From assembly GCA_003559575.1 (NCBI GenBank), contig PWKZ01000270.1:1-34810 (forward strand): a stretch of DNA of 34,810 bases. The letters run 5' to 3'. The stretch's first letter is position 1. Every line of letters starts with the position of its first letter. Shown piece by piece: positions 1 to 34,810 of this stretch. The stretch comes from Bradymonadales bacterium. GTDB taxonomy: Bacteria > Myxococcota_A > UBA9042 > PWKZ01. The position numbers were made by a program, and so were the translations under genes. The notes under the pieces are model-generated. The model was not told the origin of the DNA. It saw nothing but the letters and a program-made list of their open reading frames with translations, and made no database searches.

Positions 1-6
1 CAAACC

Positions 7-92
7 ATAATCGTCGGCCCATCCTGGTATTCGCGCGCGGATTCACGCACATCTGCGGCGTCACCTGCACCGAATTAGTGCTCGACTTAAGC
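7..92 (+). repeat. Left half of the dispersed MITE-like repeat (copy A)
   Basis: This stretch matches the left half of the complete copies at 17211-17384 and 28965-29141: terminal ATAATCGTCGG, then the ATTCGCGCGCGGATTCA block, then CTGCGGCGTCACCTG and CGAATTAGTGCTCGAC. The match stops near 92, where the central hairpin of full copies would begin, so this copy is truncated. Read on the minus strand, the end contains ATG at 22-20 followed by codons for GRRLW, running out of the window to the left. Confidence 0.8.
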
Positions 93-339: not shown

Positions 340-577
340 GCTTGACTTCCGCGTGGCGGTTGTACTATTCATCGAGCGCTTAGGCGTGGGACAAAGGAGA
401 GCGTTGAGCCCGGGTGTCGTCTCCGCGAGACAGGTACCCCACCCCCTTCAGCGCGACTGTTTTGCGGCTCGCGAGCAGACTTTGTGTCCTGTGCCGAAGC
501 CCTTCTCCCCGCAGTTCATGGCCCTCAGGGAAACGAGTTCCAGTGCGTCGTGTGGGCAACTGACGAAAGGAAAAGCG

Positions 578-3500
578 ATGCAACGCGACTTGACCAAACG
601 GATAGCCTTTTTGTTTGCCGGCGCGCTTTTGCTCGCGGCCGTCGCGTGTGACGACTCGGCGCGCCCCGAGACGACCGCGCCTGGTCTCATCATGCAGGAA
701 CTCGAGCGCGCTGAGATCGAGATTGAGTCGGAGCTGATAGTCAGGCTCACCCACGACGAACCCGAGCTCGGCTACATGATCTACTTCCGGAGTCGTCCGG
801 ATCTCTCAACTGCGTACGAGCTGGACTGGCACTCCCGGGGGCGGTATGTGGCGGCGGCGCTCCAGAAGAACGCGGAGCGAGCCCAACAGAGGGTGCGCGC
901 CCTTCTCGACACCAACCATGTCGAGTACAAGGCTTTCTGGATCGACAACATCATCGCCGTGGAGCGAGGAGACCTCGCCACTCTCAACCAGCTCATGGCC
1001 TACGATGAGATCGCGGCCATCCGAGCGCCGCGCACGATGGCGCTCATCAAACCCGAACACACGGAGCCGGCGGTCGCCTTTCCCCAGGCGATTGAGTCCA
1101 ACCTGACTCGGATCAACGCCGACGAAGTATGGGCGCTCGGCTATCGCGGCGAAGGGATGGTTTTGGCCTCCATCGACAGCGGTGTCCGCTACACCCACGA
1201 GGTGCTGGTTGAAGGCTACCGAGGCAACCTTGGCGGGGGCTCTTTCGACCACAACTTCAACTGGTGGGACCCCTACGTCGCCCACCCGGGCGCGCCAGTG
1301 GATTATCACAGCCACGGCTCGCACGTGACCGGCATCATGACCGGGGAAGACGCCGCCATGGGCAACCGGATCGGCGTCGCGCCGGGAGCCGTTTGGATCG
1401 CCTGCGCCGGATGCAACAGCAACCAATGCTCGGGTGTCTCCTTGCTCGAATGCGCGCAGTTCCTCACCGCCCCCTGGGATCTCGGCCAAGACAACCCCGA
1501 TCCGGACAAACGCCCCCATGTGATCAACAACTCCTGGGGTGATTGCGGCACCAGCTACGACGGCTGGTATCAGGGGGTCGTCGACGCCTGGCACGCCGCC
1601 GGCATCTACCCCGTCTTTGCCAACGGCAACAACACCAATTGCCTCTACCCGGCGCCGCCCGGCTGCAACACCGTCGGCAACCCGGCTCGCTACGGCAACG
1701 TCAGCGGGGTGGGCTCCACCGGTCAGAACAACGGCGCTTATGCGACCCACTCCAACTGGGGTCCGACCGACAACCCCAACCCCTTCGATTTTGACGGATA
1801 CCCCAACATCAAGCCCGATTTCGCCGCCCCGGGGGTCAACATCCGCTCGGCCGTCAACACCGGCGACGGCAGCTACGAGAGCTGGGGGGGGACCTCCATG
1901 TCCGCGCCCCATGTGGCCGGCGTGATCTCTCTCATCTGGCAGGCGGCGCCTTGTCTGATAGGTAGTTTCGCGGAGACGGAGGCGGTGCTCAAGACCACCG
2001 CGGTCCCCATCCCTTACGACTCAACTTGCGGCGGCGAGGGAGGGGGGGACCATCCCAACAACGCCACCGGGTGGGGTGAAATCGACGCGCTGGCGGCGGT
2101 CGATTTGGCTACCGGCCTGTGCGGCCCAAGCGGCTCTTTAGAGGGCTATGTGACCGGCACGGGTGGAGAGCCCATCGTGGGCGCCCTGGTCGAGATCGGC
2201 GGGCGCTCGGGGCTCAGCGACGCCGCCGGACACTACCGCGTGTTGCACGTCCCCGAGGGCACTCATGGCGCCGTGGTCAGCCACTACCGATATTTTCCGG
2301 AGGTTTTCGACGACGTGGTGATCGCTGAGGACGAGACGACCCCGCTGGATGCCCAGTTGAGCCCACGCCCCAGCGCCCCGCTCTCCGGTACGGTGCGCGA
2401 CGGCTCGGGGCACGGTTGGCCGCTCTACGCCCGTCTCGATGTCATCGCGCCGATGGGCGAGATGGAGCGAGTCTACACCGACCCCATGACCGGGTCCTAC
2501 TCGACCGGTTTGCTCACCGGCGTGGAGTACACGGTCATCGTGACCGCCCACTTGGCGGGCTATGCACAGAAGATCGCGGTTGTGACCATCGGATCCGAGA
2601 CGGTGCGGGATTTCGTGCTCGAGTCGCCGAACTGCGACGCGCCGGGGTATGCGCCGCAATATCTGGTGGCCTATTTCGAGGACTTTGAAACCGATGACGG
2701 TGGGTTCACGACCAGCGGAGTCACCAGCTTCGCGTGGGGGCAACCCACCTCGGGCCCCGGCGCGGCCTACTCCGGCGTGAACGCCTGGGGGACCAACCTG
2801 GCCGGAGACTACGGCAACAACGAAAACGGCTCGGTGGTCTCACCCGTGATCGATTTGTCGGCCTACTCGAGCGAGCTGACTCTGAGTTGGTGGCAGTATC
2901 TCAACACCGAAAGAAGCTGGGACTCTGCCTATGTTGACGTCAGCAACGATGGCGGCAGCACCTGGCAGGCCATTTACGGGCCGGTCAGTGGGGGCATCGA
3001 CACAGTCTGGGCCGAGCGCACTCACGTTCTTGATGCCGGTTACACCTCCGGCGAGTTCCGGGTCCGCTTCCGGATGACCACGGACGGCTCGGTGACTTAC
3101 CCCGGATTCTTCATCGACGACGTCGGAATCATGGCGATCGAGCCGGACTGCCTCAAAACGGCAGGGGGGCTCGTCTTCGGGCAGGTCCGGGACTTGAACG
3201 ACGGTCGTGGTGTCGTCGGCGCCGTGGTCGAGGATGGCCACGGGACTTTGGCCGAAACCTTTGAAAACGCCGACGACCCAAGCCTCCCGGTGGGGGTCTA
3301 CTTCTTGTTCGCTCCTCCGGGCGAGGGCACGTTGAGCGCCACTGCCCCCGGATACGGCGTTTCCACCCAAGGAGCGACGGTCCCAGAAGGTGGGGTGGTC
3401 AGGCGCGATTTCGATCTCGGCACCGGGCGGCTGCAGCTGACCGGCGGACCCATTTACGACAGGCTCCACGCCGACCGGATGGACGCGACCCACCACCTCA

Positions 3501-6500
3501 TGCTCGAGAACACCGGCACCGCGACAGTGCATTACGAGATTGGGTTGCGCCGGGGCCATGCTTCTTCAAGCGCACCGCACGGCGCGCCGTTCGATTTGAC
3601 CCGACTGGCGGAGCCGGTGGCGACAGGCGCGGCGGCGCAGGCCCTCACCGCGCAATACCTCGACGCCCTAGAGGCGCCCGCCCGGCATGTCACCGCCGAG
3701 GATGCGCTAATCATCAATGAGTTCGCCACCGGACACGTCCTGTCATGGGCGGCTGCGGTGGATCGCCACTCGGGGATGGTCTGGGTCGGCGAGACCATGA
3801 ACACCGTTGGCAACACGAGCGACGACTTTCTGGAGATATTCTCACCGGACGGAGTCTCCCACGGCACGGTGCCGAGTGACCTCGGCGGCTCTTTCGTGGC
3901 CGGTGGTTGCTACGATGAGACTCAAGATCTGCTGTGGTTCGTCAATGTGGGCAGCGACAACTGCATTCACGCGGTGGATCCGAGGCACGAGGCTTTCACC
4001 GGCGAGATGATTTGTCCCGGGTGGCACACGAACCAGCGCGGTCTGGCCCACGATCCGAACACCGACACTTTTTACGCGGGCACCTGGAATGACAGAACTA
4101 TCACGCACTTCACCCGCGACGGGACGATTCTCGATAACGTATTCGTCGATCTCGGGATCTCCGGGCTCGCCTACAACCAGGTGTCGGGGCATCTGTACGT
4201 CGCGGAGAGCAAGGCCAACAACGTCGGCGGATCACTGCACGTCATGGATCCGCATGACGAGTATGCGATCTTGAGGAGCTACAACTTCCCGGGGAAGCAG
4301 GACTTCTTCCAGGCGGGACTCGGGATCGACTGCGACGGGAGTGCCTGGATTGTCGACCAAAAAGAGAACAAAGCCTATCAGGTGGACGTGGGCGAGCCCC
4401 CGGTCTGCGGTCTCGATTGGGCCGAAGCGGCGCCCGAGGCGGGAGCGCTCGCGCCCGGCGAGAGCGTCTCGCTGATTGTTCGACTCTACGCCGACGAGGT
4501 GGACTTCGGGCATCATGAGGGGCGCCTGGCGATCTGGAACGACACCCCCTACGGCACCGCTGCGGTTGACCTTACGATGGATTATGTCGACAACCATACG
4601 GTCACAATTACGACCGAAGGCGGCGGCACCACCTCCCCGGCGGGAGAGGTCACGGTATTGGGGCTCGATGATCTGGCAATCCGGATCGTGCCGGAGCCGG
4701 GGCACCACGCACACGAGGTCTATTTGGACGGAGAGTACCAGGGCCGTCGCCTCGAGGAGCTTGTAATCGAGCGGGTCGAGCGCGCGCATGCCGTGCATGT
4801 CGTCTTCGGCTATACCTGCGCTTTGGACACTGACTGCGTCAATCCGCACAACGACTGCCTGGGGATCTGCCACGACGAGATCTGTCTCTTCGACATATTC
4901 AAGTCGCCGGGAGACGCTTGCGGCGATCAGACGGCCACCCGCTGCACCGCCCCCGAGACATGTAATGGTTTTGGAGTTTGTCTGACGAACCACGCTCCCT
5001 CGGGCACCTCATGCGACGCCGACGGCGATGGCTGCACCGTCGGCGACTCGTGCAGCGCCGGAGTCTGCCTCGCCGGAGCCCGGGCCGATTGCTCCCACGA
5101 GAACGATCCCTGTAACACCGGCGTCTGCGTCTCGACCGGCAGCGACTCGTATGTCTGTGAGAAGGATTCGGCCCCCCACGAAGGCCGCGCCTGTGACGCC
5201 GACGGCGACGGTTGCACCGTCGGCGACTCGTGCAGCGCCGGAGTTTGCGTCGCCGGCGCCGCGCCCGATTGCTCGGCGCTGGACGACGCTTGCAACGTGG
5301 GTGTCTGCCTCTCCACCGGACCGAATAGCTACGTCTGTCAAAGAGATCCGGCGCCTCTCGAGGGTGAGCTCTGCGACGCCGACGGCGACGGCTGCACGGT
5401 CGGGGACTCGTGCAGCGCCGGAGTCTGCCTCGCCGGAGCCCGGGCCGATTGCTCCCACGAGAGTGATCAATGTAACGCAGGCGTCTGCGTCTCGACCGGC
5501 AGCGACTCGTATGTCTGCAAGAAGGATCCGAGCCCCTACGAGGATCGTCGCTGCAACGCCGATGACAACGGCTGCACGGTCGGCGACTCGTGCAGCGCCG
5601 GAGTTTGCGTCGCGGGCGCCGCGCCCGATTGCTCGGCGCTGGACGACGCTTGCAACGTGGGCGTCTGCCTCTCCACCGGCCCGAATAGCTACGTCTGTCA
5701 AAGAGATCCGGCGCCTCTCGAGGGTGAGCTCTGCGACGCCGACGGCGACGGCTGCACCGTCGACGATTCGTGCAGAGCCGGAGTCTGTCTCGCCGGAGAT
5801 CCGCCCGACTGCTCCGACGAGGACGATCCCTGCAACACCGGCATCTGTGTCTCGACCGGGAGTGACTCGTATGTCTGTGAGAAGGATCCGACCCCTCACG
5901 AGGGTGATCTTTGCGACGCCGACGGCGACGGCTGCACGGTGGACGACACCTGCCACGAGGGCGTTTGTCTCGCCGGAGCCCGGGCCGATTGCTCCCACGA
6001 GAGTGACCCATGTAACGTAGGCGTCTGCGTCTCGACCGGGAGCGACTCGTATGTCTGTGAGAAGGATCCGACCCCCCACGAGGGTGATCTTTGCGACGCC
6101 GACGGCGACGGCTGCACAGTGGACGACATCTGCCACGAGGGCGTCTGCGTCGCGGGCGCCGCGCCCGACTGTTCGGCGCTGGATGACGCCTGCAACGTGG
6201 GCGTCTGCGTCACCACCGGGCCGAATAGCTACGCCTGTCAAAAGGATCCGGCGCCTCTCGAGGGCGAAATTTGCGACGCCGACGGCGACGGCTGCACAGT
6301 GGACGACATCTGCCACGAGGGCGTCTGCGTCGCGGGCGCCGCGCCCGACTGTTCGGCGCTGGATGACGCTTGCAACGTGGGCGTCTGCGTCACCACCGGC
6401 CCGAATAGCTACATCTGTCAAAAAGATCCGGCGCCTCTCGAGGGTGAACTCTGCGACGCCGACGGCGACGGCTGCACGGTGGATGATGCCTGCCGCGATG

Positions 6501-7600
6501 GGGTCTGCGTCGCCGGGGCTTTGGCCGACTGCTCGGGTGAGGACGATCAATGCAACACCGGCGTCTGCGTCTCGACCGGCAGCGACTCGTACGTCTGCCA
6601 GAAGAACCCGACCCCCCACGAGGGAGACCGTTGCGACGACGGCGATAGCTGTACCTTCGAGGACCGCTGCCGGCCCGACGGCACATGCGTCGGCAGCCCA
6701 TACACCTGCGACGATCCCGACCGCTGCGAGACGGCGGAGGGGGCGGTTTGCCTGGGAGATGGGACATGCAGCTACCCCGCCACTCCAGGTGTCGAATGTG
6801 ACGACGGCGATCCGTGCACCGTGGCTGAGTGTGACGGTCACGAGTGTTTGCCGATCCGAGAAGTGGACAACTGCTGCACGGATCTTCTTGAATGTCACGT
6901 CCCGTTTGAGATGTGCGACCTGGATCATAACCTGTGTGTCACGGTGATGTGTTCTCCGTGCGTGCAACACGGAGACTGTGGTGCGGAGGGCAACCTTTGT
7001 GTCATGGGCCCGCATGGCGACTACTGTGCGGTCGCCTGTGCGCCGGATGCAGAGGAAGCTTGCCCCGAGGGCACGGCTTGTCGCGAACTCGACGGGGGCT
7101 CCTTCCAATGCCTGCCGCTTTTGGGCGACTGCTTCTGCGAGCCGCGCGAGGAGCTGGTCTGTCTCGAGGGAACTCTTGTCTGGCGCTCGAGCTGCGGTGA
7201 CCACGGGGATGTGGTGGCCTACTGCGGCGAGCGTGGTTGTTCGGCCGGCGCTTGCTGCCCCGAAGGGACGACGGAAATCGACGGGGATTGCGTCGTGGTT
7301 GATGATCCTTTCGCGCCCAAGCCGGACGCCGGCGAACACGATCCAGACCGGCCGGGCGCGAGAGATGCGGGCGGCGAGATGGACGCCATCCGAATCGACT
7401 CCGAGGGTCCGGTGGACGGGCTCGAGCCGGATGACGAAGGCGCCACCGGAGGCGGTGGCGGGTGCGCCGTCGGGGCGACGGGCGGTGGTCAAGGGAGCAC
7501 CGCCGCATGGTCGCTGGTGATGGCGCTCTTGACGGCGCTGGCCGCGCTGCGTTTCGGTGCCCCCCGAATGCGCGGCGCGCGGCCGGGGGCCGACGTCTAG
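578..7600 (+). CDS. Giant secreted subtilisin-like protease with Cys-rich repeats and MYXO-CTERM tail
   Basis: 2340 residues from ATG 578, chosen because AAAGGA lies 7 bases upstream and a secretion signal follows directly; the frame is open further upstream. Residues 1-24 are a lipoprotein-like signal ending LLLAAVAC (Cys24). An I9-like propeptide region follows, then an S8 peptidase domain with Asp200 (SIDSG), His246 (HGSH), Asn351 and Ser440 (GTSMSAPHVAG). After it come carboxypeptidase-regulatory-like beta domains, a MAM/jelly-roll-like segment (near residues 700-850), a beta-propeller-like part, nine Cys-rich 60-residue repeats (about 1479-2018) and more Cys-rich sequence. The C-terminus has GGGGGC (Cys2296), a hydrophobic helix and an Arg-rich end, matching the MYXO-CTERM surface-anchoring signal. 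Likely an extracellular or surface protease; substrate unknown. Having both a lipobox-like N-terminus and a MYXO-CTERM tail is unusual. Confidence 0.92.
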   Translation: MQRDLTKRIAFLFAGALLLAAVACDDSARPETTAPGLIMQELERAEIEIESELIVRLTHDEPELGYMIYFRSRPDLSTAYELDWHSRGRYVAAALQKNAERAQQRVRALLDTNHVEYKAFWIDNIIAVERGDLATLNQLMAYDEIAAIRAPRTMALIKPEHTEPAVAFPQAIESNLTRINADEVWALGYRGEGMVLASIDSGVRYTHEVLVEGYRGNLGGGSFDHNFNWWDPYVAHPGAPVDYHSHGSHVTGIMTGEDAAMGNRIGVAPGAVWIACAGCNSNQCSGVSLLECAQFLTAPWDLGQDNPDPDKRPHVINNSWGDCGTSYDGWYQGVVDAWHAAGIYPVFANGNNTNCLYPAPPGCNTVGNPARYGNVSGVGSTGQNNGAYATHSNWGPTDNPNPFDFDGYPNIKPDFAAPGVNIRSAVNTGDGSYESWGGTSMSAPHVAGVISLIWQAAPCLIGSFAETEAVLKTTAVPIPYDSTCGGEGGGDHPNNATGWGEIDALAAVDLATGLCGPSGSLEGYVTGTGGEPIVGALVEIGGRSGLSDAAGHYRVLHVPEGTHGAVVSHYRYFPEVFDDVVIAEDETTPLDAQLSPRPSAPLSGTVRDGSGHGWPLYARLDVIAPMGEMERVYTDPMTGSYSTGLLTGVEYTVIVTAHLAGYAQKIAVVTIGSETVRDFVLESPNCDAPGYAPQYLVAYFEDFETDDGGFTTSGVTSFAWGQPTSGPGAAYSGVNAWGTNLAGDYGNNENGSVVSPVIDLSAYSSELTLSWWQYLNTERSWDSAYVDVSNDGGSTWQAIYGPVSGGIDTVWAERTHVLDAGYTSGEFRVRFRMTTDGSVTYPGFFIDDVGIMAIEPDCLKTAGGLVFGQVRDLNDGRGVVGAVVEDGHGTLAETFENADDPSLPVGVYFLFAPPGEGTLSATAPGYGVSTQGATVPEGGVVRRDFDLGTGRLQLTGGPIYDRLHADRMDATHHLMLENTGTATVHYEIGLRRGHASSSAPHGAPFDLTRLAEPVATGAAAQALTAQYLDALEAPARHVTAEDALIINEFATGHVLSWAAAVDRHSGMVWVGETMNTVGNTSDDFLEIFSPDGVSHGTVPSDLGGSFVAGGCYDETQDLLWFVNVGSDNCIHAVDPRHEAFTGEMICPGWHTNQRGLAHDPNTDTFYAGTWNDRTITHFTRDGTILDNVFVDLGISGLAYNQVSGHLYVAESKANNVGGSLHVMDPHDEYAILRSYNFPGKQDFFQAGLGIDCDGSAWIVDQKENKAYQVDVGEPPVCGLDWAEAAPEAGALAPGESVSLIVRLYADEVDFGHHEGRLAIWNDTPYGTAAVDLTMDYVDNHTVTITTEGGGTTSPAGEVTVLGLDDLAIRIVPEPGHHAHEVYLDGEYQGRRLEELVIERVERAHAVHVVFGYTCALDTDCVNPHNDCLGICHDEICLFDIFKSPGDACGDQTATRCTAPETCNGFGVCLTNHAPSGTSCDADGDGCTVGDSCSAGVCLAGARADCSHENDPCNTGVCVSTGSDSYVCEKDSAPHEGRACDADGDGCTVGDSCSAGVCVAGAAPDCSALDDACNVGVCLSTGPNSYVCQRDPAPLEGELCDADGDGCTVGDSCSAGVCLAGARADCSHESDQCNAGVCVSTGSDSYVCKKDPSPYEDRRCNADDNGCTVGDSCSAGVCVAGAAPDCSALDDACNVGVCLSTGPNSYVCQRDPAPLEGELCDADGDGCTVDDSCRAGVCLAGDPPDCSDEDDPCNTGICVSTGSDSYVCEKDPTPHEGDLCDADGDGCTVDDTCHEGVCLAGARADCSHESDPCNVGVCVSTGSDSYVCEKDPTPHEGDLCDADGDGCTVDDICHEGVCVAGAAPDCSALDDACNVGVCVTTGPNSYACQKDPAPLEGEICDADGDGCTVDDICHEGVCVAGAAPDCSALDDACNVGVCVTTGPNSYICQKDPAPLEGELCDADGDGCTVDDACRDGVCVAGALADCSGEDDQCNTGVCVSTGSDSYVCQKNPTPHEGDRCDDGDSCTFEDRCRPDGTCVGSPYTCDDPDRCETAEGAVCLGDGTCSYPATPGVECDDGDPCTVAECDGHECLPIREVDNCCTDLLECHVPFEMCDLDHNLCVTVMCSPCVQHGDCGAEGNLCVMGPHGDYCAVACAPDAEEACPEGTACRELDGGSFQCLPLLGDCFCEPREELVCLEGTLVWRSSCGDHGDVVAYCGERGCSAGACCPEGTTEIDGDCVVVDDPFAPKPDAGEHDPDRPGARDAGGEMDAIRIDSEGPVDGLEPDDEGATGGGGGCAVGATGGGQGSTAAWSLVMALLTALAALRFGAPRMRGARPGADV
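5012..6631 (+). repeat. Nine tandem 180-bp units encoding Cys-rich repeats
   Basis: The coding sequence repeats with a period of exactly 180 bp (60 codons) nine times, then decays into a degenerate unit. Each unit begins CDADGDGCTV, an acidic loop resembling Ca-binding loops, and has regularly spaced cysteines. Two subtypes alternate: A (ARADCSHE...STGSDSYVC) and B (AAPDCSALDDACNVGVC...TGPNSYVC), in order A B A B A A B B A. Units 7 and 8 are almost identical in DNA, indicating recent duplication. Confidence 0.9.
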
Positions 7601-9323: not shown

Positions 9324-9378
9324 CCCCTAATTCCCCACCTGCACCGGCATTCGTGCGCGGATCCGCGCGCGAATCCCA
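9324..9378 (-). repeat. Dispersed repeat, short form, upstream of the nitrogenase-like operon (copy B)
   Basis: This 55-base segment is 51/55 identical by eye to 13987-14041, beyond the other end of the HDK operon, in the same orientation. The AATCCGCGCGCGAATCCCA block matches (reverse complement) the left part of the full-length repeats. The copy lacks the terminal GACGATTA end. Confidence 0.8.
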
Positions 9379-9597: not shown

Positions 9598-10410
9598 ATG
9601 GAGCGGATCGCCATTTATGGGAAAGGCGGAATCGGCAAGAGCGTTATTGCGACCCATTTGAGCGCCGAGTTTGCCCGGCGTGGGTTGAGTGTTTTACATG
9701 TGGGCTGTGATCCGAAGGCCGACTCGTCTTGTCGTCTCACCGGCACCGCCCAAGTGAAGACCGTGCTGGGGGCGATGGGGATGAACCCGGAGGAGATCTC
9801 CGCGCCCCAGATAGTCACGCCGGCGCGCAACGGGATCTCCTGCATCGAGGCCGGCGGTCCGGAGCCCGGATCGGGCTGCGGAGGGCGCGGAGTGGCGCGG
9901 GCGGTGGAGCTCATCGGGGAGCTCGATCTGATGAATGAGCGGGAGTTCGACGTGGCCCTCTTCGATGTCCTCGGAGACGTGGTCTGCGGCGGTTTTGCGG
10001 CCCCGATGCGGCAGGGCTTCGGCGAGAAGGTTTTCATTGTCGTCTCCGAGGAGGCGATGGCCTTGTTCGCCGCCAACAACATCGCTCGTGCGATAATCAA
10101 CTACTCGTACAACGGCATCGTGCTCGCGGGGTTGGTCGCCAACGTGCGCTCCGCCAATGAAGCGGATCGCGAGCGGCTCCACCGCTTCGCCGCGCGGCTT
10201 GGGACCAAGGTGGTGGCAGTGATCGAGCGCTCCGAGTTGATCTCGGCGGCCGAGAGGCAGCTCATGACGGTCATCGACACGGCGCCTGAATCCGACGTCG
10301 CCAAGATATTCAGCGGGCTCGCCGAATTCACGCTCGGGTTCGAGGTCGCCGAGGTGGCCAACCCGACGCCGATGACAGAGGACGAGTTTTTCGAGTTCAT
10401 GCGGGAGTGA
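9598..10410 (+). CDS. NifH/BchL-family reductase component (nitrogenase-like iron protein)
   Basis: 270 residues, the usual length for this family. These proteins are homodimeric ATPases that hold one [4Fe-4S] cluster between subunits and pass electrons to a NifDK-like partner during ATP hydrolysis. Visible hallmarks are the P-loop GKGGIGKS (8-15), CDPKADS (37-43), cluster ligands Cys94 (GSGCGGRGV) and Cys130 (DVLGDVVCGGFA), and Arg97, at the position of the NifH ADP-ribosylated Arg. It is the first gene of a three-gene operon, 4 bases before the next start. The sequence is close to the NifH core but lacks the long C-terminal tail of true NifH. NifH, BchL/BchX, CfbC and MarH relatives cannot be separated from this protein alone; the partner genes argue for an uncharacterised subgroup. 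Confidence 0.93.
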   Translation: MERIAIYGKGGIGKSVIATHLSAEFARRGLSVLHVGCDPKADSSCRLTGTAQVKTVLGAMGMNPEEISAPQIVTPARNGISCIEAGGPEPGSGCGGRGVARAVELIGELDLMNEREFDVALFDVLGDVVCGGFAAPMRQGFGEKVFIVVSEEAMALFAANNIARAIINYSYNGIVLAGLVANVRSANEADRERLHRFAARLGTKVVAVIERSELISAAERQLMTVIDTAPESDVAKIFSGLAEFTLGFEVAEVANPTPMTEDEFFEFMRE

Positions 10411-10414
10411 GAGG

Positions 10415-12490
10415 ATGGCGGACACAAAGCCTGCTAAAGGGAGCGACGGGCGAGAGCAGAAGCTGACGCTCGCGGCCATGCAGGGGCACACCTTCGCGGG
10501 AGGAGCTTATTCCCGGGCGGAATTCGGGGCGCTCCTGGGGCTTGCGCCGATCGAGGACTGGGAGCCCAGGCTGGGCCCCCGTCTCAAGGTGGCCGCCTGG
10601 GTCAAGGAACGCGCCGAGCTAACCATCGACGAGGGGGACGACACCCCCGAGAACGTGATCGTGATCGAGCGCTACCACACCGGGCGCTCCGGTCTCGTCC
10701 ATTCAAAGACCCTCAACGTCTGGGCGCGCAACGACGGTGTGCCCTGGGATCTGATCCTGCGGCTGCGGCTCGCGGTGCGAGGCCGTTTGGGGCGGCTGAG
10801 CGCCGAGCACATCGCGAGAGTCTTCGCGTCGGATCCGGAAATCGGCAGCGCGCGCTACGAGGCGCCGGCGGTGGTCGCAGAGGCGCGTGAGGATGAGTTT
10901 GACCGCCAGGCGTTTTTGTTCAACTGGGGCGGCTCGGACATGTGGTACCAGTTTTTCGCCACGGCCGAGTACTCGCGTGCACGGCTCGAATCGCTCGACC
11001 TTCTTGACCGCGCCACATCGGTCAACCACTGCGATCGCGAGTGTCTCGCCAACGAGCCGCATATTCCCCTGCGAGTGCCGCTGACCAATTTTCCCTGGGA
11101 TGATCGAATCCGGCGCTCGTGGGGGGGGCGCGAGGGGTTGCCTCCCGAGGATCTGAACCCCACTCCCAAGGAGGCGCCCCCCGGCCTGGAGGAGCACGCC
11201 GAGTTCTTGGGCATCAGGGGTGCAAAGAAGCGCCCGCGCGACGAGGGGACAGTCTTGAAGGGCGGCTATCGGACCCAATCGCACTACACCGAGCTGACCG
11301 ACTACGACGTGATTATGGGTGGCCAGAAGAAGCTCGCCCGGGTGCTCGATTTCGCCATCGACAACCTCTTCGGCGACATGCTCTTTGCCCACGTGACCTG
11401 CATCCCGGCGGTCACCGGCGAGGACGTCGAGGGGGTCATTCGTCAAGCTCAGAAGCGCTGTCCCGTCCCGATCTTGACCCTCACCATGACACCGGACGCC
11501 AAGGACGTGATTTTCGGTCCTATTTTGGTGGAGAGCCGAAAGGAAGCCGAGGAGCGGATCAAGGCGCGAAACCCGCGGGCGGTGAATCTAATCGGATTCC
11601 CGGAGGACGCCGGCACCGGTGAGCTGGTCAAGATGATTCAGCAAGCGGGGGTCGAGCTGAACGTCATCCTGATGCCGCGGGTGCAGCTCGAGCGGGTACG
11701 GCGGCTCCCGTTGGCTCCGCTGCATGTAATCCACCCCAACGAGTTTTGGCAGAACTTGTACAATCAGCTCCTCTTCGACACCGAGATCAACTCCATCACG
11801 CCCGAGGCGCCCTACGGCTATCGTCGAACAGCCGCCTGGTGCGAGCAGGTGGTGGCCGCCGCCGGCGGTGACCGCGCGTGCTTGCCGCAGGTGTTGGAGG
11901 AGGCCTGGGCGCCCTATCGAGAGCGCTTCGAGGCGCTCAAGAGCGAAGCCGCCCAGTATCGGTTGGGCTTCGTGCTGGGGGGCGATCAGGTGCGCCAGGT
12001 AGCCGACCCCGGCACCACCTGGGGTATACCGCTGCTCGGTATTCTCGAGGAGTTCGGCTTTTCGATGGACTTCATGATTCACACCTCTGATCGCCGAGAG
12101 GGGGCCGAGGCCGTCAAAGACCTCAAAGCTCCGCTCGAGGACACCGGGGATCGCCACCGCTTCCGGCTGTTCCAGACTCCGTCGCAGCTCAAGGCGCTAC
12201 TCGGCACCGGCGGCTTCGCGGCCGTCTACAGCGAGCATTTTTTCGACTTCCGCATCTCGCGCTCCGGCAAGTCCCAGTTCTCCCTGACCATGTTCGAGCG
12301 TGGTTTCGGCGGGGCGCTACGGACTCTCGAGCGGTTGGTCCAGGTCTGCCGACTGCCGCTTTTCCACCGTTATGGCAAGTTCATGGGTGAGGCGTTCCCC
12401 TGGGCGTCGGACACCGAAGCGCTCGAGTCGCTTTCGAACCGTCGCGCGCAGCAGGGGCGCGACAGGAGAGAGGGAGATCCCCGGTCATGA
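10415..12490 (+). CDS. Enlarged NifD/NifK-like catalytic subunit with novel N-terminal region
   Basis: 691 residues, against about 420-550 in known NifD, BchN/B and MarD proteins. Residues 1-290 have no counterpart I recognise; they include WGGSDMWYQF (171-180) and CDREC (Cys206, Cys210). From about 297 the NifDK fold is clear: DVIMGGQKKL, then HVTCIPAVTGEDVEGVI, whose Cys329 matches NifD Cys154. Later come the GYRRTAAW and FERGFGGALRTLERL motifs of the family's other domains. At the position of the FeMo-cofactor Cys275 I read HVIHP, so that ligand appears absent, and no clear equivalent of cofactor His442 is seen. The Shine-Dalgarno GGGAG lies in the end of the NifH-like gene, and the stop overlaps the next start (ATGA). 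Probably the alpha-type subunit of a reductase of unknown substrate. Confidence 0.85.
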   Translation: MADTKPAKGSDGREQKLTLAAMQGHTFAGGAYSRAEFGALLGLAPIEDWEPRLGPRLKVAAWVKERAELTIDEGDDTPENVIVIERYHTGRSGLVHSKTLNVWARNDGVPWDLILRLRLAVRGRLGRLSAEHIARVFASDPEIGSARYEAPAVVAEAREDEFDRQAFLFNWGGSDMWYQFFATAEYSRARLESLDLLDRATSVNHCDRECLANEPHIPLRVPLTNFPWDDRIRRSWGGREGLPPEDLNPTPKEAPPGLEEHAEFLGIRGAKKRPRDEGTVLKGGYRTQSHYTELTDYDVIMGGQKKLARVLDFAIDNLFGDMLFAHVTCIPAVTGEDVEGVIRQAQKRCPVPILTLTMTPDAKDVIFGPILVESRKEAEERIKARNPRAVNLIGFPEDAGTGELVKMIQQAGVELNVILMPRVQLERVRRLPLAPLHVIHPNEFWQNLYNQLLFDTEINSITPEAPYGYRRTAAWCEQVVAAAGGDRACLPQVLEEAWAPYRERFEALKSEAAQYRLGFVLGGDQVRQVADPGTTWGIPLLGILEEFGFSMDFMIHTSDRREGAEAVKDLKAPLEDTGDRHRFRLFQTPSQLKALLGTGGFAAVYSEHFFDFRISRSGKSQFSLTMFERGFGGALRTLERLVQVCRLPLFHRYGKFMGEAFPWASDTEALESLSNRRAQQGRDRREGDPRS

Positions 12491-13911
12491 CCATCGATGT
12501 CAATAAGAGGAGTGGGGAGGAGAGAGAGTCCTCCGCACCGCTGCCCAGCGAGATGTTGGACACCTCGGCGCGAGTCACCACCACGTGTCTCATCGGGGCC
12601 TATGCGGCGATCAACGCCATCCCCGACTCCTATCTGCTGGTAGACGCGCCGGACTGTGCGCACCTCAAAGCGCAGTTCATCCACGGCAACCACGACTTGA
12701 TGTCGACGCTCATCAGCATCAGCGGGTATCACCGGATCGGCAACACCGCGCTGCACTGCTGGAAAGTGATCGACAAGCGCGACGAGCAGATAGTGGCGCT
12801 GCTCGAGAAGATGGGGGAGTTCGAGGGCTCCGGGGTGGTCATGATGACCTCGATGCCGATGGCTACCATCGTCGGGATCGATTACGAGCGTCTGGTGCGC
12901 CAGGCGCAGGCCCGCTCCGGCACCGACACCTTCCACGTGTTCGATCGGGCGATTGACGGCGACTGGATGGACGGCTACGCCGAAGTGCTCGACACCTTGG
13001 CGCGCTCCATGCCTCTCTCCGATGAGATCGAGCGCGATCCGAAGAAGGTCGCCATCGTCGGCTACTTCATGGATCGCAACGAAGAGGACCACCACGGCAA
13101 CCTGCGCGAGCTTCGCCGCCTGATCGAAGGGCTGGGGCTCGAGCTTTGCACCGTGTGGGCCGGCGGTGAGCCCTGGGAGACCATGAAGCGCGGGATCCAG
13201 GAGGCCGGCACGATCCTCTCGTTCCCGTACGCGCGCAAGGCGGCGCGCACTCTGGAGCGACGCGTTGGGACCCCGGTGCTCGAGTGCCGCCTGCCGTTCG
13301 GGCTCAACGCGACCGTCAAGTGGCTCGAGCAGTTGGGCGAGTCAATCGCGCGCCCCGAGGTGGCGGCGGATCTCATCGCGCGTGAGCTACAGGCGATTAT
13401 GCCGCGCCTCGAGTTCGTGGTGCCGTTTCACTTCCTGCACCGCCGGGCCATGTTCGTTGGCGACCCACATCTCGCCGCGGGGTTTGTCGAGATCGTCGAA
13501 GAGTTCGGTGGGACAGTGCCGTTCATGGCGATCACGAGCCGCAAGCAGAACGCCCGGCATCTGCGCGACGGGCTCTCCGACACCACGCTGCACGTCGATC
13601 CGACCATCGCCTCGCTGATGGAGCACACGATGGAGCATCAGCGGTCCGTGGATCTCGTGGTGAGCTGCAACACCACCGGGGCCGGTCCCGCCACCGAGGG
13701 GCACATTGAGTTCGGCTTCCCCTGTTATGAGCGCCACGCGCTCTATGATCGACCGTTTCTCGGGTTCAGCGGCTTGATGGCTTTCGCCGACGAGATGTTG
13801 CGCGAGCTTAGAAAAGTTGATCAGATGAAACTGCGCCGCGAGAAAGACCGCGAGAAGGGCCCGAATGGCCCCGATGGCCCGGGCGGCCCCGACGGCCCGG
13901 GCGGCCCCTGA
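12487..13911 (+). CDS. NifK/BchB-like second catalytic subunit
   Basis: 474 residues, typical for the family. Cys34 (TTCLIGAYAAI) and Cys57 (LLVDAPDCAHL) are spaced like NifK Cys70 and Cys95. The third ligand motif reads TSMPMATIVGIDYERLV, with Pro124 at the place of NifK Cys153. The C-terminal family motif is present (HIEFGFPCYERHALYDRPF, then GFSGLMAFADEML). It overlaps the upstream subunit gene by 4 bp (ATGA), implying translational coupling and a 1:1 complex. The last residues are a Pro/Gly/Asp-rich tail from an 18-bp DNA repeat, absent from known relatives as far as I know. It most likely forms a heterotetramer with the 691-residue subunit and shares an intersubunit Fe-S cluster; the substrate is unknown. 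Confidence 0.88.
   Translation: MTIDVNKRSGEERESSAPLPSEMLDTSARVTTTCLIGAYAAINAIPDSYLLVDAPDCAHLKAQFIHGNHDLMSTLISISGYHRIGNTALHCWKVIDKRDEQIVALLEKMGEFEGSGVVMMTSMPMATIVGIDYERLVRQAQARSGTDTFHVFDRAIDGDWMDGYAEVLDTLARSMPLSDEIERDPKKVAIVGYFMDRNEEDHHGNLRELRRLIEGLGLELCTVWAGGEPWETMKRGIQEAGTILSFPYARKAARTLERRVGTPVLECRLPFGLNATVKWLEQLGESIARPEVAADLIARELQAIMPRLEFVVPFHFLHRRAMFVGDPHLAAGFVEIVEEFGGTVPFMAITSRKQNARHLRDGLSDTTLHVDPTIASLMEHTMEHQRSVDLVVSCNTTGAGPATEGHIEFGFPCYERHALYDRPFLGFSGLMAFADEMLRELRKVDQMKLRREKDREKGPNGPDGPGGPDGPGGP
13867..13908 (+). repeat. 18-bp tandem repeat in the 3' end of the NifK-like gene
   Basis: The unit GGCCCCGAYGGCCCGGGC is present 2.3 times and encodes GPDGPG repeats at the C-terminus. The GGCCCGGGC-type sequence is also strongly self-complementary. 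Confidence 0.8.
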
Positions 13912-13933: not shown

Positions 13934-13987
13934 GCCACTCACAACGCCTTGTTGGGAGTTACCGTCTCCACCGCAGTAGTGAGTGGC
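13934..13987. terminator. Long-loop inverted repeat after the nitrogenase-like operon
   Basis: GCCACTCAC (13934-13942) and GTGAGTGGC (13979-13987) are perfect 9-bp complements around a 36-base loop, which itself contains GGAG/CTCC. There is no T-tract. It may be a transcript-end structure; its right arm touches the next repeat copy. Confidence 0.4.
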
Positions 13988-14060
13988 CCCTAAGTCCCCA
14001 CCTGCACCGGCATTCGCGCGTGAATCCGCGCGCGAATCCCAGGATGGACCGACGATTATG
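13987..14060 (-). repeat. Dispersed repeat, short form, downstream of the nitrogenase-like operon (copy C)
   Basis: Bases 13987-14041 match 9324-9378 in the same orientation at 51 of 55 positions. Unlike copy B it continues to the repeat's terminal sequence (GGACCGACGATTAT). Relative to full copies the central half is missing, giving a 74-base internal-deletion form. An ATG at 14044 opens a 16-codon frame (MDRRLWRR...) that is probably not a gene. Confidence 0.78.
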
Positions 14061-14077
14061 GCGAAGGGTCGGCGCTT

Positions 14078-16161: not shown

Positions 16162-17226
16162 TCAGTGGGCGGACCAGCGGGTGATCGCGCTTTCGTATTT
16201 CTCGATCTCTTTGGCCGCCTCGCGCACCGGCTCCGAGAGGTCGATGGCCACCAGGCGCACCGCCACTGAGGCCGGGAGCGCGCTCTCATCGGCGGACAGC
16301 TCGAGCCGTTTGGCCATCTCGTCCAAGGACCGGCGGTGCGGCCGAGCGCGGTCCAGGAGTTCGATATACCACGCGCGGACCATTCGCCGCTCGCGCTGCA
16401 AATAACCCGGGTAAGGCTCGAACCAGGTGACCGGAGCACCCATCTCCTTCATCTGGGAGCTTCCCCAGGTGTCGCTCATCTCGGCGAAGTGGCGGCCCAA
16501 GAGACTGTCGACACAAGCCGCTTCGGTGGCCAGCGCGCGCCAGACTTCGGATCTCGACGGTCCATCTTCGCGCATTCGCACCATCTCACCGGTCCGCTGC
16601 CAACGCTCGGCGGCGCTCATCGCGTGACCTGTTATCCGCATCCCGGCCACCAGCGGCAGGGGCCCGCCCGCGCCCCGCAGCAAGCGCGCCAAGTGCGAAA
16701 CGGCGCGCAGCCGGTCATCGAGATGGGGCTCTGAGAGACCCACATCCCCCTGCGCGATGATGACTCGACTCAGCAGGAACAGATCCCTCACCGGGTAGTC
16801 GGCGTCGAGCCGGCATGGGTCGGTCAGATCGAGCCCCCCCCCGGCGCTGGCCCAGGCGACAAGCGAATCCGCCAGAGCCGCGTTCTCATGGAGCAAATTC
16901 TGATGCGCGCGAGTGCGCTCGCCCGGCTTGTGGGCCAGAAGTACGGCGCGCTCCAATTCGTCCCCCTTGATTTGCCGCAGCGCCTCGAGGGCCTCGCGCA
17001 GCCCCTCGTCCTCCCCCTCGACATACGGCGCGACGCGAGCGTCATCGAGTAGCGCCTGCCACTTGGCGTTGAGTCTCGCGGGGGCAATGGCCGGTTCAGC
17101 CAACCACTGGCGAACGGCCCGGCGTTGATAGAGGATCGTACTGGCGATGAGGAGTATCAAAAGGATGGCCCCCGCGCCGTGCGGGCTCGTCAAGAGCTTG
17201 CGCCAACGCCATAATCGCCGGCCCAT
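16162..17226 (-). CDS. Unknown single-pass membrane protein
   Basis: About 354 residues if started at ATG 17226. I chose this start because it gives MGRRLWRWRKLL followed by a clear helix (GAGAILLILLIASTILY), an N-in signal anchor. The frame is open to ATG 17388, which overlaps the stop of the upstream PLP gene (ATGA), but those extra 54 codons are entirely repeat copy D. An ATG at 17268 is a third option. The rest is soluble, helical and rich in charged residues and Leu, with no family I recognise. It sits between the PLP enzyme and the radical SAM gene, all on the minus strand. Confidence 0.7.
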   Translation of the reverse strand: MGRRLWRWRKLLTSPHGAGAILLILLIASTILYQRRAVRQWLAEPAIAPARLNAKWQALLDDARVAPYVEGEDEGLREALEALRQIKGDELERAVLLAHKPGERTRAHQNLLHENAALADSLVAWASAGGGLDLTDPCRLDADYPVRDLFLLSRVIIAQGDVGLSEPHLDDRLRAVSHLARLLRGAGGPLPLVAGMRITGHAMSAAERWQRTGEMVRMREDGPSRSEVWRALATEAACVDSLLGRHFAEMSDTWGSSQMKEMGAPVTWFEPYPGYLQRERRMVRAWYIELLDRARPHRRSLDEMAKRLELSADESALPASVAVRLVAIDLSEPVREAAKEIEKYESAITRWSAH

Positions 17227-17384
17227 CGAGGGATTCGCGGACGGATCCGCGCCCATCTGCGGCGTCATCTGCTCCGAATTGGTGCTCGACTTAAGCGCTG
17301 CTACGCCTCCGCCTAATTCGGCTTGTTTCCTTGCACATGAACGCGCCTCCACACGCTCGCTCCTCAGAACGAACCGACGATTAT
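17211..17384 (+). repeat. Full-length MITE-like repeat (copy D)
   Basis: 174 bases bounded by terminal inverted repeats ATAATCGCCGG and CCGACGATTAT (one mismatch). Inside is a second inverted repeat CCGAATT/AATTCGG around the central AGCGCTGCTACGCCTCC. It starts at the base after the PLP gene's stop and runs through the 5' end of the open frame of the next gene. Confidence 0.85.
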
Positions 17385-26919: not shown

Positions 26920-27080
26920 CCCTAATCCTCAATCCTCCACCCCTTCCGGGATTCGGGAAGCGATTCGGGCCCAACTGCGGCGTCACCTGCACCGAAAACG
27001 GTGCTCGACGTAGCGCTGCGTTTCCCTCCGGCCAAGCCGTCTCTCTTGCATCTCACTCCGGTTCGACGCGCTCGGTAATC
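26920..27080 (+). repeat. Diverged copy of the dispersed repeat (copy E)
   Basis: It shares CTGCGGCGTCACCTG, CACCGAA and GGTGCTCGACGTAGCGCTGC with copy F in the same order and spacing, but the flanks differ. Its left end CCTCAATCCTCCAC matches the end of copy G, defining a second subfamily of ends. It occupies the gap between divergent genes at 26778 and 27163. Apart from it and a ribosome site the gap shows nothing clear. Confidence 0.65.
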
Positions 27081-28964: not shown

Positions 28965-29141
28965 CCCTAATCGTCGGCTCATCCTGGGATTCGCGCGCGG
29001 ATTCAAGCGCATCTGCGGCGTCACCTGTACCGAATTAGTGCTCGACGTAGCGCTGCTACGCCTCCGCCTAATTCGTTTTGTTTCCTTGCATTTGCACCTG
29101 ACTCCACACGCTCGGTCCTCAGAACAAGCCGACGATTAGGG
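28965..29141 (+). repeat. Full-length MITE-like repeat (copy F, reference copy)
   Basis: 177 bases with perfect 15-bp terminal inverted repeats CCCTAATCGTCGGCT and AGCCGACGATTAGGG. A nested perfect inverted repeat CGAATTAG/CTAATTCG brackets the central GTAGCGCTGCTAC palindrome. It has no transposase and is too short to code for one, so it is a non-autonomous element or a structured dispersed repeat. It sits between divergent genes, 11 bases before proC. Confidence 0.92.
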
Positions 29142-34690: not shown

Positions 34691-34810
34691 GGCCTCAATC
34701 CTCCACTCTGTCCGAGGACCGAGGGGAGTGAGGCGGGTGCAAGTGCAAGGAAACAAGCCAAATCGAGCGGAGGCGTAGCGGCGCTACGTCGAGCATCGAT
34801 TTTGTGAAGG
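34691..34810 (-). repeat. Dispersed repeat running off the window (copy G)
   Basis: The reverse complement matches the right two thirds of copy F: GTGCTCGACGTAGCG-GCTACGCCTCCG, TTGTTTCCTTGCA, and CTCGGTCCTC. Its end reads GGATTGAGG instead of CGATTAGGG and shares CCTCAATCCTCCAC with copy E. The other end is beyond the window. Confidence 0.78.

Follow-up and report, generated by a model that had tools for sequence, protein, structure and literature searches.

The 34,810-nucleotide window considered here is one whole contig (PWKZ01000270.1, C60) out of the 306 that make up the 3.95-Mb assembly of a Bradymonadales bacterium, and it holds several copies of a short element of the miniature inverted-repeat transposable element (MITE) type. 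The centre of the element is a conserved module which, on the minus strand of the window, constitutes the tip of the full-length hairpin. This tip is kept nearly unchanged in several phyla while the ends of the elements differ by host, which suggests, from sequence comparison, that the tip has some function. On balance we favour the explanation that these elements belong to a superfamily of MITEs that are mobilised in trans, and that selection acts on their hairpin in its folded, single-stranded form, probably as RNA.

Both strands of the element fold, the consensus reaching a minimum free energy (MFE) of -111 kcal/mol on the minus strand versus -70.5 kcal/mol on the plus strand, and among 23 divergent cores or clusters 22 fold more stably on the minus strand (mean difference -8.6), as do all 20 full elements compared. 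On this strand the tip reads GC-GsA-GGCGTAn-nnnnn-n'TACGTC-GA-GC-A (s, C or G; n and n' covarying), and the search pattern itself contributes part of this invariance. The GsA/GA internal loop is closed by two invariant G-C pairs. A second pair of motifs, CRAGG about 21-23 nt before the tip and YRACGMMG about 13-18 nt after it, is present as a pair in 15 of 29 divergent representatives. The covariation proposed as a check in a first-pass annotation of the window proved to be strong in the flanking stems. Among 43 cores chosen by the apical motif alone, 83.8% of cells were paired versus 67.5+-1.1% in shuffles, and double changes numbered 148 versus 61.7+-6.5 (reached in 0/500 shuffles); the covariation score was 0.389 versus 0.126 shuffled (0/500) and at most 0.164 in slid registers, the shuffle being a control that does not remove relatedness and the slid one a control that keeps it. 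Compensation is also seen between the two subfamilies of the window genome, which keep the stem as GAATTAG/CTAATTC and AAATCGA/TCGATTT, respectively. As the pairing is conserved while stems and terminal inverted repeats (TIRs) change between hosts, the module would be selected as a folded single strand.

The same core was found in other bacteria. A BLAST search of 90 genomes with the consensus gave repeated or convincing matches in five others (G031, G033, G036, G039 and G041), from two other families of the window's class, and one weak match in G025 that is probably coding. The matches in the other families fall in the middle of the elements and not at their ends; those elements have different ends (CCCAAATYCACCG, CCCGAATCCGCCG, CCCAAATTACCTGAC) and the same hairpin tip. 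The pattern TGCTCGACGTAnnnCnnnTACGCCTsCGC retrieved at least 65 stretches in GTDB genomes, a few of which look coding (e.g. L139), and many of the matches lie visibly within TIR-bounded hairpins. The hosts comprise deltaproteobacterial and myxococcote metagenome-assembled genomes (MAGs), Desulfobulbaceae, Treponema vincentii, T. putidum, Bdellovibrionales, Acidobacteria, Coxiellaceae, Anaeromyxobacter and Solirubrobacterales. Ten carrier genomes bear from 1 to 47 tip sites each, with 0 or 1 in reversed controls. With R1, a covariance model built on the core (54 nt), 284 genomes of the phylum were searched and 31 gave matches at E<=1e-4, at least 20 in some, most of the genomes having none, a patchy distribution as expected of a mobile element.

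Searching viral contigs for CAAGGCG...GTACn5GTAC...CAACGC, a pattern devoid of the GsA/GA loop, yielded further long hairpin elements, and one such type is related by BLAST to intergenic sequence on Pseudomonas and Halomonas plasmids; E. coli genomes gave no match to the Halomonas copy. The elements of this type carry the GC-GsA...GA-GC-A loop on other apical stems (ATGTAC/GTACAT and GTTTAC/GTAAAT) and are matched by R1 with E=0.0016-0.0086 at two loci and E of about 0.13 at two more. Judging from these sequences, the loop reappears independently, since a search pattern free of it retrieved elements bearing it. Some matches were discarded: the viral ones L149-L153 represent a single sequence present in five contigs and apparently coding in a phage, and L306-L308, L310-L313 and similar ones look like coding or chance matches. 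Three further observations concern the carriers. In T. putidum (NZ_CP009228.1, about 2573084-2643841; L193-L196) some fifteen co-oriented copies are clustered 3-11 kb apart, in contrast to the scattered copies of T. vincentii; integron attC sites were considered and set aside for this array, with its copies several kb apart, and the copies do not have the known attC ends. In L317, L323 and L329-L332 long hairpins show the internal loop mirrored, with GA on the 5' side and GCA on the 3' side. In genomes of the window's class (L060-L082) the inner stem resembles the terminal repeat, as in CCCAAATCCACCG with CCCAAATCGG, CCCGAATCC with CGAATCGG and CCCTAATCGTCGG with CCTAATTCGG, as if one factor bound both.

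The first-pass annotation had described seven related copies in the window, and related sequence is indeed present at all seven places, with the limits and strands given below.

28965 to 29141, minus strand: copy F, full-length element of subfamily 1, 177 bp, with 15-bp perfect TIRs
29026 to 29079, minus strand: conserved structured core of copy F, scored by R1 at 67.6 bits, the same sequence being among the 43 training sequences of the model
17209 to 17384, minus strand: copy D, full-length element of subfamily 1 with mutated right terminal bases; core at 17270-17324 (R1, 42.1 bits)
34693 to 34810, plus strand: copy G, subfamily 2, with ends CCTCAATCCTCCAC, truncated by the contig end; core at 34755-34808 (R1, 68.6 bits)
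26927 to 27080, minus strand: copy E, degenerate element of subfamily 2 with a decayed core
5 to 92, minus strand: copy A, left (5') half of a subfamily 1 element, followed by unrelated sequence
13987 to 14061, no strand assigned: copy C, short element of 75 bp bounded by CCCCTAAGTCCCC at one end and CCGACGATTATGG at the other
9324 to 9378, no strand assigned: copy B, part of a short element of C's type

Copy F was assigned to the minus strand as the one with the more stable full-length hairpin (MFE of -105 kcal/mol versus -77 on the plus strand). Its perfect TIR is CCCTAATCGTCGGCT, and its inner pair CGAATTAG/CTAATTCG flanks the GTAGCGCTGCTAC palindrome, both as first described. Copy E retains the left end CCTCAATCCTCCAC at 26927-26940, and R1 gives no match in it. 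Copies B and C, 93% identical over 55 nt, are short forms, internally deleted or chimeric, and have a third, short end type, CCCCTAATTCCCCACC. No transposase was found among the 20 open reading frames (ORFs) of the window that were scanned, in agreement with the earlier statement.

Genome-wide, copy F as a query gave at least 43 listed matches of 86-100% identity (40 of 497 candidates scored), including full-length copies of 177-179 bp with 88-93% identity and unrelated flanks. The consensus of 31 aligned copies has perfect 13-bp TIRs, CCATAATCGTCGG/CCGACGATTATGG; overall, full copies measure 177-181 bp and consensus TIRs are perfect over 13-14 bp. The subfamily 1 end (CCATAATCGTCGG/CCGACGATTATGG) occurs at 386 sites with at most one mismatch (3 in the reversed control) and the subfamily 2 end CCTCAATCCTCCAC at 309 (control, 1). 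Both of the end subfamilies first proposed are thus real, each with full copies of 177-178 bp, and full copies of 178 bp occur with CCTCAATCCTCCAC ends. These 695 ends, divided by two, correspond to at least about 350 elements, a lower bound because the assembly breaks inside identical cores; for many of the end sites a contig end is only about 107-120 nt away. The density of one copy per 5 kb reported for the window somewhat exceeds the average for the genome, about one per 11 kb, which is calculated from the same minimum count over 3.95 Mb. Internally deleted forms of 40, 70 and 76 bp retain both ends, and some elements are chimeras whose ends do not match. At C20:10412-10560 (L188) a 55-bp unit is repeated three times in tandem, each unit with one subfamily 2 and one subfamily 1 end.

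Mobility is indicated by the flanks. The target-site duplications (TSDs) for which a search had been proposed were exact over 5-7 bp in 11 of the 39 copies with both flanks (5 bp in seven, 6 bp in three and 7 bp in one), whereas random pairing of flanks predicts 0.42 such copies among 39. Related elements in a Desulfobulbaceae MAG show exact 6-7 bp TSDs at 15 of 25 sites, mostly ANNNNT. These duplications are the mark of insertion at a staggered cut. Copies also adjoin or nest within other copies (L019, L030). That the elements are terminators or other fixed structures kept for the benefit of the host would fit long, stable hairpins located mostly between genes; nevertheless, the TSDs, the nested insertions, the unrelated flanks of nearly identical copies and the finding of a single classifiable copy between convergent genes make such an origin very improbable. 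The elements are short (<500 bp), non-coding, dispersed and numerous and have TIRs, and the MITE-like anatomy first claimed is borne out by sharp ends, unrelated flanks, perfect TIRs and the excess of TSDs, as well as by nested insertions and deletions that retain both ends. Few copies elsewhere in the genome, with neither covariation nor end conservation, had been named as grounds for abandoning the family; the contrary was found on all three counts.

Several observations weigh against the explanation that we favour. Exact TSDs are shorter than 5 bp or absent in 28 of the 39 own-genome copies. Most of the strand preference is due to the invariant tip, and in the arms outside it the balance of G.U to A.C, 66 to 47 (p=0.09), is weak and only suggestive of a strand choice. 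No orientation bias relative to genes was detected among the classifiable copies, a comparison of low power made with a home-made gene caller. Finally, a transposase with matching ends, which the first-pass annotation had proposed to look for, was not found in the window genome, an incomplete MAG in which few transposase families were searched, nor by end spacing in the complete chromosome of T. vincentii or among the first 100 of the 108 sites of the Desulfobulbaceae MAG. The only DDE_Tnp_1 match of the window genome (C253) is a fragment lacking matching ends, and the T. vincentii ends CTTTTGAAAATA and the Desulfobulbaceae ends bound only miniature or partial elements. Two candidates were rejected: a putative autonomous partner at C108 8453-9942, with 1490 bp between matching ends, consists of two separate copies around a parvulin-like gene, and the presence of CCTCAATCCCTCCAC 5' of an IS1380-type transposase (C96, PF13701) was judged a coincidence, the match lying in seemingly coding sequence. 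Contig C96 (L340, L342), of about 40% GC, is moreover probably a contaminant of the MAG.

Ordinary MITEs, that is, decayed relatives of one insertion sequence (IS) family whose core has been conserved through recent horizontal transfer, would equally present TIRs, TSDs, high copy number, internal deletions and the patchy distribution in the phylum. Under recent transfer, however, the ends should be no less conserved than the middle, while here TIRs and stems are unrelated between hosts, the interior loops are invariant and the stems covary. The simple form of this proposal is already contradicted by the compensatory changes, and we regard it as unlikely. Of the original description the anatomy stands, and 'MITE of some IS' is incomplete because phyla share the core as a covarying structure, each host has ends of its own and the genomes checked gave no matching transposase.

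In the mechanism that we envisage, a trans-acting transposase, presumably of the DDE type, would recognise the TIRs and insert the element at a staggered cut, duplicating 5-6 bp. The module, composed of the apical stem-loop, the G-s-A / G-A internal loop, a variable covarying stem and the CRAGG ... YRACGMMG pair, would be carried on different ends in different phyla. It would act mainly as an RNA hairpin, produced by read-through host transcription, to which a conserved RNA-binding protein or an RNase of the host would attach, making insertions tolerable or useful. We infer, and prefer, a role as RNA because transcripts of bacterial MITEs fold and RNase III binds or cuts those of the Correia/NEMIS elements of Neisseria (PMC2649163, PMC2229807). 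A further reason is that both the TSDs and the lack of Y1 transposases in carriers speak against mobilisation by RAYT. The main alternative is a DNA hairpin used in transposition, in which the strand folded at replication would be a recombinase substrate, as for IS200/IS605, REP/RAYT or attC. Like such substrates, the strand folds with covarying pairs and keeps its unpaired bases conserved, and all the structural evidence could equally be that of DNA. Enzymes of these types, however, are not known to produce 5-6 bp TSDs, which argue against them. Y1 transposases (PF01797) were not found in five of ten carrier genomes (T. vincentii, T. putidum, the Desulfobulbaceae MAG, G041 and G031), the IS110 recombinase of bridge-RNA elements (PF01548) was found in one of eight carriers, and the elements are dispersed singly and not in cassette arrays. 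A DNA substrate seems improbable to us.

A broader proposal can be made, although tentatively: the module defined by the GC-GsA / GA-GC-A loop and the CRAGG / YRACGMMG motifs may be an old passenger of transposon ends, present across several phyla on MITEs with unrelated TIRs and different TSDs, perhaps including Correia, owing to a conserved factor of the hosts that would bind the folded strand. The MITEs of bacteria are generally regarded as IS debris, specific to each genome and without relationship to one another. If a structured core with changing ends is indeed shared across phyla, many of them would be one superfamily with a shared function. The core would then give a concrete target, the binder of the GsA/GA hairpin; its model could annotate many unannotated repeats, and it would allow testing why some bacteria tolerate hundreds of copies.

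Two other regions of the window deserve mention. At 9598-13911 a NifH/frxC-type gene adjoins two Oxidored_nitro genes (691 and 474 aa). None of the three proteins comes near the cut-offs of NCBIfam for nitrogenase, DPOR, BchX/Z or CfbC, and they are best described as a nitrogenase-like system of unclear type. At 4970-6709 at least nine 180-bp tandem repeats lie inside a 2415-codon ORF (353-7600) with a subtilisin-like (mycosin) domain match below the cut-off.

Regarding known families, Rfam 15 at the gathering threshold gave only tRNA in the window and no family for the element, nor did any family fall on the elements of L001, L091, L094, L143 and L145 at E<=5. A sub-threshold match to TD-2 RNA (L094, 4517-4599) lies about 63 nt beside a T. 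vincentii core. Motif searches of the open-access literature returned no description of the element. Among the closest parallels is that with Correia/NEMIS, for which core conservation and the binding of RNase III and of IHF have been published (PMC2649163). Both elements are short, TIR-bounded, high-copy and form a long hairpin, but the Correia TIR is TATAGTGGATTAA and the ends in the window genome are CCATAATCGTCGG or CCTCAATCCTCCAC. The Correia target is TA. Were Correia a divergent member, its known promoter, IHF-site and RNase III functions would apply. In real Correia copies CAAGG, a GTAC-n5-GTAC hairpin and CAACGCCG follow one another as they do here and on the corresponding strand, a three-part pattern matched by 3 of 20000 dinucleotide shuffles in a test that was post hoc and whose shuffles lose palindromes. 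On the other hand, the apical motif differs and R1 has no match in nine Correia loci at E<=10. Membership is less likely than not, and we take the relation as a lead, suggestive only.

The remaining systems were compared by their descriptions. The Chunjie MITE of Geobacter uraniireducens, as described in a review (PMC10969869), is 178-235 bp long, with dozens of copies, TIRs and direct repeats, and Geobacter is related to the carriers of the Desulfuromonas/Desulfobulbaceae group. QMITE2 of Coxiella burnetii has 150-190 bp, variable direct repeats and a hairpin giving a small RNA (PMC5896051); it differs in its 7-11 nt direct repeats and GTAG REP, and one Coxiellaceae MAG bears the core (L109, R1 search). 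REPINs are likewise abundant, non-autonomous extragenic palindromes, but the REPIN/RAYT system needs a Y1 transposase, not found in several carriers, and the TSDs argue against it. MITEPsy1 of Pseudomonas syringae, with TIR GGAAGGTCTGAAAAAGCC and a 4-nt TSD (CTAG/YTAA), is thought to be moved by ISPsy2 (PMC3189936), and both it and MITEPsy2 are short mobile MITEs of a genus with relatives of the core. In kind the element is a MITE, and what appears to be new is its cross-phylum, covarying core with exchangeable ends.
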